NCBI RefSeq assembly: GCF_943737005.1
Contig: NZ_CALSFU010000001.1
Span: 62,001 to 126,000 of the forward strand
Direction: 5' to 3'
Length of the DNA stretch: 64,000 nucleotides
DNA from: Achromobacter sp. Marseille-Q4962
GTDB taxonomy: Bacteria > Pseudomonadota > Gammaproteobacteria > Burkholderiales > Burkholderiaceae_B
In this document: piece by piece, positions 55,160-58,212 of the stretch
Position numbering within the stretch: position 1 is the stretch's first letter
How the letters are laid out: the number at the start of each line of letters is the position of its first letter
Notes under the pieces: model-generated
What the model was told of the DNA's origin: nothing
The model's database searches: none
The model's input: only the letters and a program-made list of their open reading frames with translations
Translations under genes and position numbers: made by a program

Positions 55160-55801
55160 TCAATCCCAGTCGTCGCGATAAACGAACTTGGGCATCTGCC
55201 AGTTGAACCGCAGCGCCAGCAGGCGGAACGCCAGGCCGGCGGCCAGCGCCAGCGGCACCGCTGCGTTGGCCGACAGGCCCAGCGCCTGGCCCCCGAGATA
55301 CAGCGCGCCCGTGGCGGCGGAGACGCTGGCGTACAGTTCCTTGCGGAACAGCAGCGGCACCTCGTTGCAGAGCACGTCACGCAGCACGCCGCCCGCGCAG
55401 CCCGTAATCATGCCGCTGATGAGCACCACCGTGACGGAAAGCTGCATCTGCTGGGCCACCTGGCAGCCGATGACGGTGAACGCCACCAGGCCCAGCGCGT
55501 CGGCCAGCAGGAACACGCTGCGCAGGCGCCGCATGACCGGCGCGATGAGCGCCGTGAGCAGGGCCGCCCCGGCCGTCATCCAGAGATATTCGGGGTGCAC
55601 GATCCAGGTGAGCGGGTAGTGGCCCAGCAGCACGTCGCGCACGGAACCGCCCCCCAGGGCGGTAACGCAGGCAATGGCGCACACGCCCAGCCAGTCCATG
55701 TCGCGGCGCCCCGCCGACAGGGCGGCCGTCATGGCTTCGGCCACGATCGCGACCAGGTACAGGCTGTGCAGCAATAGCGGGGAGATGGTGGAGAAAAACA
55801 T
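55160..55801 (-). CDS. TRIC-type cation channel family protein (UPF0126/YadS)
   Basis: This is a seven-helix membrane protein of 213 aa, formed of two repeats of the UPF0126 domain. The paired motifs are ALGGGSVRDVLLGHYP in the first repeat and TGCAGGVLRDVLCNEVPLLF in the second; the glycine-rich kinks and Arg-Asp pair are typical of prokaryotic TRIC channels. It probably conducts monovalent cations as a trimer. It is on the same strand as the GntR gene and 227 bases away from the divergent universal stress protein gene. Confidence 0.88.
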   Translation of the reverse strand: MFFSTISPLLLHSLYLVAIVAEAMTAALSAGRRDMDWLGVCAIACVTALGGGSVRDVLLGHYPLTWIVHPEYLWMTAGAALLTALIAPVMRRLRSVFLLADALGLVAFTVIGCQVAQQMQLSVTVVLISGMITGCAGGVLRDVLCNEVPLLFRKELYASVSAATGALYLGGQALGLSANAAVPLALAAGLAFRLLALRFNWQMPKFVYRDDWD

Positions 55802-55906
55802 GGCCGGGACGGATTCTGCGCAAACGCCATTGTATTGAAGCGGCGGCAGACTTCGCGCAAGCGGACGTTGCCTGCTTTGGCCGCATCCCTTACGCTCGGA
55901 AATGCA

Positions 55907-55948
55907 TTGATATCAGTCAAGCCCGGACGCGCACCGCGGCGCGACAAT
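55907..55948 (+). promoter_or_regulatory. Class II FNR/ANR promoter of the universal stress gene
   Basis: TTGAT-ATCA-GTCAA at 55907-55920 matches the FNR/ANR site TTGAT-N4-ATCAA at nine of ten positions. GACAAT at 55943-55948 is a good -10 box; the implied transcription start (about 55955) puts the FNR site centre at -41.5, the exact class II activator position. The usp gene starts at 56029. Confidence 0.72.
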
Positions 55949-56028
55949 GGGCATGTGCCCGCAAGGGCGGCAATGCCGGTCCGTGGATTGCGGGAGCCGC
56001 GAACCGGTCCTCAATACGGGAGAAAAGC

Positions 56029-56898
56029 ATGTCTAAGCAACCTGGCCCCATTCTGCTGGCCACGGATCTCAGCTCGCGCGGCGACCGCGCCCTGGACCGG
56101 GCGCTGCAACTGGCGCAAGAACTGGATCGCCCCCTGATCGTGCTGCACGTCATGGAAGCGCAAGGGCAGACCGCCCGCCTCACCACGCCTGTCTGGCGCC
56201 GCCTGTCTCCTGACCACAAGGCCCTGGCCGAGCGCGAGCTGGCCGAAGACCTGGCCGGCGCCAAGGTGCGCACCGAAGTGGTGGTGGTGTCCGGCGATCC
56301 GCTCGCGCAGATCATGGCCACCGCCGACAGCTACGGCTGTTCGCTCATCGTGACCGGCATCGCGCGCGACGAAACGCTGGGCCGCCTGCTGCTGGGCACC
56401 ACGGTCGAGAAACTGGTGCGCAAGGCGAGCCAGCCGGTGCTCATCGTCAAGACGCGGCCGCGCAAGCCGTACCGCGACGTGCTGGTCGCCACCGACTTCT
56501 CGGAAGGCTCGCGCGAGGCCCTGCGCGCGGCGCTGGACCTGGTGCCCAACGCCGACCTGACCCTGTTCCATGCCTACGACGTGCCGTTCCACGGCAAGCG
56601 CGCCCCGGAAGAAGCCGTGGTGCGCAGCTTCCACAAGGCGGCCGAGCAGGAGTCGCACGCGTTCCTCGCCGCCACGCCCGAGCTGTCCGGCAAGCCGGCG
56701 CCCAAGGTGGTGCTCGAATGCGGCCAGCCCGAAACCGTGCTCTCGGAGTATTCGTTCACCCACCGCTCCGACCTGGTGGTGACGGGCACGCACGGCCGCA
56801 CGGGCATCCTGCGCACGGCGATCGGCAGCGTGGCCGAGCGCCTGCTCGAATCGCTGCCCAGCGACGTGCTGATCGTGCGGCTCACCACCGAAGAGTAG
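56029..56898 (+). CDS. Tandem universal stress protein (two Usp domains)
   Basis: This stress protein of 289 aa is built from two Usp domains. Domain 1 (residues 1-145) has ILLATDLSSRGDRALDRALQ. Domain 2 (from about 147) has DVLVATDFSEGSREALRAAL and the ATP-binding motif GTHGRTGILRTAIGSVAERL; the first domain has a weaker form of that motif. Such tandem proteins support survival under low oxygen or energy stress in pseudomonads and mycobacteria. An FNR/ANR-type promoter upstream predicts induction under oxygen limitation. It is convergent with ampG. Confidence 0.93.
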   Translation: MSKQPGPILLATDLSSRGDRALDRALQLAQELDRPLIVLHVMEAQGQTARLTTPVWRRLSPDHKALAERELAEDLAGAKVRTEVVVVSGDPLAQIMATADSYGCSLIVTGIARDETLGRLLLGTTVEKLVRKASQPVLIVKTRPRKPYRDVLVATDFSEGSREALRAALDLVPNADLTLFHAYDVPFHGKRAPEEAVVRSFHKAAEQESHAFLAATPELSGKPAPKVVLECGQPETVLSEYSFTHRSDLVVTGTHGRTGILRTAIGSVAERLLESLPSDVLIVRLTTEE

Positions 56899-56931
56899 CC
56901 GCGGCGGACCGCGCCACGCACGGGGCGGGGC

Positions 56932-58212
56932 TCAGTCCTCGCCCTCGCGCACCATGGCTTCGATGCGCCCGCGCAAGGCGTGCAGCAGCAGCAGGCCGGG
57001 CACGGCGATCGCCACCGTCACCAGGAAGAAACCGGGCCAGCCCAGCTCCTGCACCAGCGGCGGCGTGAGCGGCCCGGCCAGGTACGTGCGGCCCACGGCC
57101 GATAGCCCCGACAGCAGCGCGAACTGCGTGGCCGAGAAACGCTGCCGGCACAGCGCCATCAGCAGGCCCACGAAGGCGGCCGTGCCCAGGCCGCCGCAGA
57201 GGTTCTCCAGCCCCACGCCGGCGGCCATCAGCCACAGGTTGCGGGGGCTGACGGCGATCAGCCAGTACGCCAGGTTCGACACGCCCTGCAGCACCCCGAA
57301 GCACATCAGCGAACGGTACAGGCTCCAGCGCGCCATGACGGCGCCCCCGGCCAGCGCGCCCACAATGGTGGCCGCGATGCCCATGACCTTGTTCACCGCC
57401 CCCACCTCGGTCGGCGTATAGCCGGCGCCGCGCAGCAGGAAGGTGGTGGACAGCGCGCCCGCGAAAGCGTCGCCCAGTTTGTACAGCACGATGAGCAGCA
57501 GCACCGCCAGCGCGCCGCGCCGGCTGAAGAACTCCGACAGCGGCTCCACCACCGCTTCGCGCAGGCGGCGTGGCGCCAGCGCCACGTGGTCGGGCTCCGG
57601 CGCGGCCAGCGTCGCCAGCGCGCACAGCAGCATGAACACGCCCATCAACACGTAGGTGCGGCCCCAGCCCAGCGGCGGCACGAGCACGTGCTCGCCCCAA
57701 TGCAGGCCGCTGTCGGCCAGGATGAAGGCCAGCCCCCCGGAGACGATCATCGCCAGCCGGTAGCCCAACACCTTGACCGCCGCCCCGGCGCCGCGCTCTT
57801 CCTTGTGCAGGACGTCGGTGCAGTATGCATCGAAGGCGATGTCCTGCGTGGCCGACAGGAAGGCCACCAGCAGCCCCAGCAGGGCCAGCGGCTTGAGCGC
57901 CTCCGACGGCGACAGCAGCCCCATCACCATGATGGTCAACGCCAGCAGCGCCTGCGTCACCAGCATCCAGCCGCGCCGGCGTCCCAGCACCGGCGGCACG
58001 TAGCGGTCCACCAGGGGCGCCCAGAGGAACTTGAGGGTATAGGCCGAACCGACCAGGGTGAGGAAACCGATTTCCTGCAGCGGCACGCCCTCCACGGTGG
58101 CCCAGGCCTGCAAGGTGCTGCCCGACAGGGCCAGCGGCAGCCCGCTGGCGAAACCCAGCACCAGCAGGGGCGCGACGCGCGGACTCGTATAGACGTTCAG
58201 TACTGCGGAAAT
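56932..58212 (-). CDS. ampG: Muropeptide permease AmpG, probable ATT start
   Basis: AmpG is a major-facilitator transporter that brings anhydromuropeptides from the periplasm for cell-wall recycling, and it affects beta-lactamase induction. It has 12 or more membrane segments. The family motif LVLGFASGLPLALSGSTLQA is at the N-terminus, then FLWAPLVDRY and SATQDIAFDAYCTDVL. A GTG at 58161 would begin inside the first membrane helix. In-frame upstream there is no ATG, GTG or TTG, but an ATT at 58212 sits six bases after GGGAG and gives 426 aa with a short cytoplasmic lead. CTG at 58200 is another option. Confidence 0.88.
   Translation of the reverse strand: MSAVLNVYTSPRVAPLLVLGFASGLPLALSGSTLQAWATVEGVPLQEIGFLTLVGSAYTLKFLWAPLVDRYVPPVLGRRRGWMLVTQALLALTIMVMGLLSPSEALKPLALLGLLVAFLSATQDIAFDAYCTDVLHKEERGAGAAVKVLGYRLAMIVSGGLAFILADSGLHWGEHVLVPPLGWGRTYVLMGVFMLLCALATLAAPEPDHVALAPRRLREAVVEPLSEFFSRRGALAVLLLIVLYKLGDAFAGALSTTFLLRGAGYTPTEVGAVNKVMGIAATIVGALAGGAVMARWSLYRSLMCFGVLQGVSNLAYWLIAVSPRNLWLMAAGVGLENLCGGLGTAAFVGLLMALCRQRFSATQFALLSGLSAVGRTYLAGPLTPPLVQELGWPGFFLVTVAIAVPGLLLLHALRGRIEAMVREGED

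Follow-up and report, generated by a model that had tools for sequence, protein, structure and literature searches.

The gene for a tandem universal stress protein (usp) in the DNA analysed here, a window of 64,000 nucleotides from Achromobacter sp. Marseille-Q4962, can be assigned with high confidence to a class II promoter activated by FNR. Its induction by low oxygen through this regulator is very probable. From the sequence we infer FNR binding, the transcription start, the induction under low oxygen and a contribution of the Usp protein to survival when oxygen is limiting. The features that make up this promoter and its surroundings are collected in Table 1.

Table 1. Coordinates of the promoter, leader and gene features in the window, and of the candidate regulator
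Feature	Position	Strand	Remark
FNR box TTGATATCAGTCAA	55907-55920	+	centre 55913.5, -41.5 relative to the predicted start
P1 -10 element GACAAT	55943-55948	+	22-nt spacer after the box
Predicted P1 transcription start	55955	+	from the -10 element and the box position
Possible second promoter P2, TTGCCT-N17-TACGCT	55868-55896	+	putative promoter function; start near 55903
Leader hairpin 1, GCCC-GCAA-GGGC	55957-55968	+	first base at +3 relative to the predicted start
Possible leader hairpin 2	55975-56008 (arms 55975-55980 and 56003-56008)	+	modest covariation, 17 relatives
Ribosome-binding sequence GGGAG	56018-56022	+	sequence
Tandem universal stress protein gene, 289 aa	56029-56898	+	two Usp stretches, Pfam
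Divergent gene, two-domain membrane protein, Gly_transporter	55160-55801	-	Pfam
FNR-type oxygen sensor (L041)	G000:C5:45558-46283	-	outside the window

Architecture of the usp promoter

The sequence TTGATATCAGTCAA agrees with TTGAT-N4-ATCAA at 9 of 10 positions and is the sole match to an FNR box with at most one mismatch across the 64-kb window, against an expectation of 0.20. Since 18 of 100 shuffles of the window hold at least one box of this quality, the box alone is merely mildly unusual. The joint pattern of box and -10 element, TTGAYNNNNRTCAA-N22-NANNNT, has one match in the window and none in the 100 shuffles. The -10 element itself matches TATAAT at 4 of 6 positions, and the start predicted from it may be offset by 1 to 2 nt. 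The first-pass annotation had described a 9-of-10 FNR site and a GACAAT -10 element that place the activator centre at -41.5, upstream of a tandem universal stress protein gene, and both the elements and the nature of the gene were borne out. Its reading of the arrangement as a class II FNR promoter also gains support, from the genus-wide retention of box, spacer and -10 element, from an intact FNR homologue and from the recurrence of the same spacing at other genes, as described below. The possible upstream promoter P2 and the conserved leader hairpin were overlooked in that annotation.

The promoter scan revealed no sigma70-like promoter with a score of 9/12 in the region 55700-57000, as would be expected if transcription of usp needs an activator. 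The possibility that the box serves the divergent gene was considered and rejected, given that the minus strand carries GCGGCC at the 22-nt distance and no -10 element. When oxygen is scarce, FNR would retain its [4Fe-4S] cluster and dimerise, and the dimer would occupy the box in place of a -35 element. The bound FNR would then contact RNA polymerase at the GACAAT element, leading to transcription from near the predicted start and to a transcript in which about 74 nt of leader precede the coding region of the two-domain stress protein.

The usp product matches Pfam PF00582 in two stretches (172.4 bits, 1e-50), and a G-x2-G-x9-G-S motif is found in the second domain only, at residue 253. We take the G-x2-G-x9-G-S/T motif of the second Usp domain to be a nucleotide-binding motif. 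The score against the NCBIfam UspE equivalog is 57.7 bits, below the cut-off of 227, and by this measure the protein is tandem like UspE, yet is not UspE. A search of Rfam with positions 55700-56900 for a known RNA element gave a single match at E <= 1, sRNA P17, which was taken as chance because it scored 15 bits versus a gathering score of 45 and lies inside the gene. A plasmid origin of the DNA was likewise rejected, given that the six plasmid records matched cover at most 9% of the query. The divergent Gly_transporter gene lies beside usp in all 20 Achromobacter loci and in the loci of the sister genus (g36, possibly Bordetella) searched. The sequence CATTGTATTGA (55828-55838) is invariant across 25 aligned sequences and on the minus strand reads TACAAT, a likely -10 element for this divergent gene.

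Conservation of the promoter and its regulator

The arrangement box-N22-GA[CG]AAT was found in all 43 genus genomes searched. In 38 of them the strict pattern TTGAYNNNNRTCAA-N22-GACAATGG has exactly one match per genome, and none in the reversed control. The other five, which were inspected, contain usp and still have the box, followed after 22 nt by GACAAT or GAGAAT, deviating only at the -10 element or at the GG that follows it. The element was viewed immediately upstream of usp in 25 aligned sequences and in these five genomes, and its position before usp in the remaining genomes rests on the single, alike match. The 25 sequences comprise the window, 20 Achromobacter loci and four loci from the genus genome set; the set of 20 loci and that of 43 genomes overlap, and their counts are not additive. 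The -10 element has a mean pairwise identity of 1.00 and the box half-sites reach 0.94 and 0.91, compared with 0.85 for the four bases between the half-sites and 0.63 for the 22-nt spacer. These values were obtained from 24 of the 25 sequences, after removal of the near-duplicate L012, and the sequences are related and thus not independent.

Outside the genus, a tandem usp gene was found at E <= 1e-60 in 9 of the 15 genomes of the sister genus, and box and -10 element are retained at all nine loci, with a spacing of 22 nt in eight and of 23 nt in L085. At one locus of this genus (L086, genome G092) the usp match contains an internal TAG while the promoter is kept, and judging from the sequence this copy of the gene may be decaying. 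More distant members of the family contributed 18 loci (L087-L104) with 14 different upstream regions. Only one of these regions, L090, combines the box with a -10 element at 22 nt; the box of L095, with one mismatch, has no -10 element at that distance. For alphaproteobacterial relatives, the search covered 300 nt upstream of 17 loci and found no box with one mismatch or fewer.

The genome also encodes a candidate regulator. Pfam HTH_Crp_2 has 14 matches in it, 6 of them above the cut-off. Only one of the 14, L041, carries the cysteine motif CSTCMLGHVC, which has the C-x2-C-x5-C arrangement, and a later cysteine that aligns with that of solved FNR structures. L041 matches those structures at 3e-53 and scores 225.5 bits against NCBIfam Fnr, slightly below the cut-off of 228. 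All 16 usp-bearing genomes searched have an FNR at 84-100% identity that retains both the cysteine motif and the E..SR helix. Four genomes of the sister genus (G068, G151, G153 and G157) have neither a tandem usp match nor a close FNR orthologue; their FNR-type proteins are 43-44% identical and have both motifs. This pattern is suggestive of a linked loss of usp and the close FNR, but may instead reflect plain ancestry.

The 22-nt spacing is shared by further genes in the genome. Allowing at most one mismatch, TTGATNNNNRTCAA has 98 matches per strand, versus 35 in the reversed control. There are 11 distinct perfect FNR sites, 3 of which precede usp genes. From these 11 sites, 10 oriented boxes were obtained by dropping L059 and L060, which lie inside longer reading frames, and by counting the L057 box in both directions, with other reverse orientations uncounted. 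NANNNT lies exactly 22 nt downstream of 6 of the 10 chosen gene-facing boxes, and at any other spacing from 14 to 31 it is found at no more than 2 of them. The binomial figure for the 22-nt spacing, 1.7e-7, is indicative only because the boxes were chosen after looking. The six boxes with this spacing belong to the usp gene of the window, a single-domain Usp, a second tandem Usp, ompW, a COX1-family oxidase gene, which we read as ccoN, and an E1-E2 ATPase, and the four that lack NANNNT at 22 nt precede an MCP, a beta-CASP hydrolase, an Hsp20 and an MFS gene.

By our own count from 13 domain matches, the genome has 11 usp genes. Three have perfect boxes and one (L113) has a one-mismatch box that lacks a -10 element at 22 nt; for the other seven, neither kind of box was found in about 500 nt upstream. 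The enrichment figure for usp genes, 1.8e-6, supposes a total of 4500 genes, which is a guess. A stretch of about 8 kb (L057, L058 and L112; G000:C2, about 148-156 kb) contains two perfect boxes, two usp genes and an Hsp20 gene divergent from one for a beta-CASP hydrolase, and resembles the low-oxygen-activated locus of Burkholderia.

Two other explanations of the usp box were weighed against activation by FNR. Proteins of the Dnr or FixK type recognise boxes similar to those of FNR, and a different regulator of the Crp/Fnr family, responding to nitric oxide or a kinase, could use the box in vivo. The relatives G154 and G156 encode a further protein that has the E..SR helix and lacks the cysteine motif (L143 and L142). 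In the genome of the window, however, the helix (ETVSR) occurs in 1 of the 14 Crp-type HTH matches, which is the cysteine-motif FNR itself, and a search for FNR returned a single match at E <= 1e-20, so that the involvement of another regulator appears highly improbable. A chance resemblance, with box and -10 element both meaningless, would agree with the frequency at which shuffled sequence yields the box alone. Box plus -10 element never arose in the shuffles, however, and the pair is conserved throughout the genus and at every tandem usp locus of the sister genus, which leaves chance a very remote prospect. Activation by FNR is the best explanation.

A second promoter-like element and the usp leader

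A second conserved element, P2, terminates 10 nt upstream of the FNR box. It is the sole match in the window to TTGC-N19/20-TACSCT, for which 0.14 would be expected. The pattern extended to the box, TTGC-N19/20-TACSCT-N9/11-box, has one match each in 41 of the 43 genus genomes and none in the control. The two exceptions are G075, where TACGCT is changed to GACGCT, and G179, from which the element is missing. If P2 is a promoter with a start near 55903, FNR on its box would occupy positions +5 to +18 of P2 and would therefore close P2 while opening P1. This would extend activation by FNR to a hand-over between two promoters, in which P2 would be active in air and FNR would block it and activate P1.

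The genus-wide occurrence of P2 together with the box is consistent with such a hand-over, as is the distance between its hexamers, which is 17 nt in 22 and 18 nt in 3 of the 25 sequences and falls in the sigma70 range of 16-18 nt. The hexamers also have identities of 0.87 and 0.93, versus 0.63 on average for the middle and a 6-mer median of 0.67, a profile like that of a sigma70 promoter. On the other hand, they agree with sigma70 at just 4 of 6 and 3 of 6 positions, under the threshold of the promoter scan, and the element is absent at all nine loci of the sister genus as well as in G179. Moreover, the spacer contains a conserved CATCCC (0.90). Such conservation is not expected within a sigma70 spacer, and the block could thus bind another protein, through some other or additional site. 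On balance the hand-over is doubtful and is put forward tentatively, and we consider it rather unlikely that FNR acts in the genus as a promoter selector on usp that swaps an aerobic for an anaerobic promoter. Were this so, a leader of about 126 nt would be replaced by the leader of about 74 nt that starts with a hairpin, and cells would produce the stress protein in either oxygen state, from different transcripts. The P2 element beside the FNR promoter is a new detail and a modest lead, with a putative function.

The leader predicted for P1 opens with hairpin 1, whose position at +3 fits a start near 55955. Its arms have identities of 0.94 and 0.98 and its loop 0.47 (24 sequences), and the hairpin was recovered by RNAalifold from 20 leaders. 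It may protect the usp transcript. A second hairpin has mixed support and is possible only. RNAalifold did not find it in the 20 leaders. It was tested with pairs named by hand in 17 of the 25 leaders, a selection that excluded the window, L009, L011, L012 and L017-L020, mostly out of register in an earlier alignment. In this test 89.9% of cells pair, versus at most 50.4% when slid. Nine cells have double changes, a number reached by 5 of 500 shuffles, and these fall in two pairs, a number reached by 356 of 500. The sequence GCGGGAG (55990-55996), in the loop of this possible hairpin, is nearly invariant (GCGGGA 0.97) and resembles the ribosome-binding sequence further downstream; it could conceivably be a CsrA-type or ribosome standby site.

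Comparable systems and implications

In Pseudomonas aeruginosa, which unlike the host of the window is a gammaproteobacterium, usp genes are induced under low oxygen by the FNR homologue Anr. FNR-activated usp genes have already been published, one of them with its box at -41.5, and for this reason the arrangement of the usp promoter is ordinary and common. A close parallel is uspA (SGRAN_3353) of Sphingopyxis granuli TFA, which has Fnr-dependent expression and, as in the window, a class II Fnr box centred at -41.5, in that case from the start determined by RNA-Seq (PMC7713065). Unlike the host of the window, this organism is an alphaproteobacterium, and its uspA may not be the same gene, given that the relatives of the window's tandem usp found in sphingomonads, at 17 loci, lack an upstream box of one mismatch or fewer. 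In Herbaspirillum seropedicae, Fnr1 and Fnr3 together directly activate uspA_1 and uspA_2, which like the usp gene of the window are betaproteobacterial, when oxygen becomes limiting (PMC5934665); that organism has three Fnr orthologues, whereas the genome of the window has one.

In Burkholderia cenocepacia, usp genes, among them those in the lxa locus and a uspA beside anr2, are raised under low oxygen, and uspA is needed for anoxic survival in the absence of nitrate (PMC6127331, PMC9104464); the gene cluster differs from that of the window. The first of these papers also mentions Anr-controlled usp genes of P. aeruginosa (PMC6127331). Judged by title and the beginning of the abstract, none of the top literature matches concerned FNR control of usp in Achromobacter or Bordetella, which is not a claim that such control is unpublished.

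The usp promoter is a firm and directly testable FNR target in Achromobacter, a genus to which cystic fibrosis opportunists belong. With the genus-wide P2 element, it could be tested cheaply whether a single FNR site can both shut and open neighbouring promoters. With its FNR promoter, the two-domain stress protein would be tied to the same FNR switch as the cytochrome oxidase gene.
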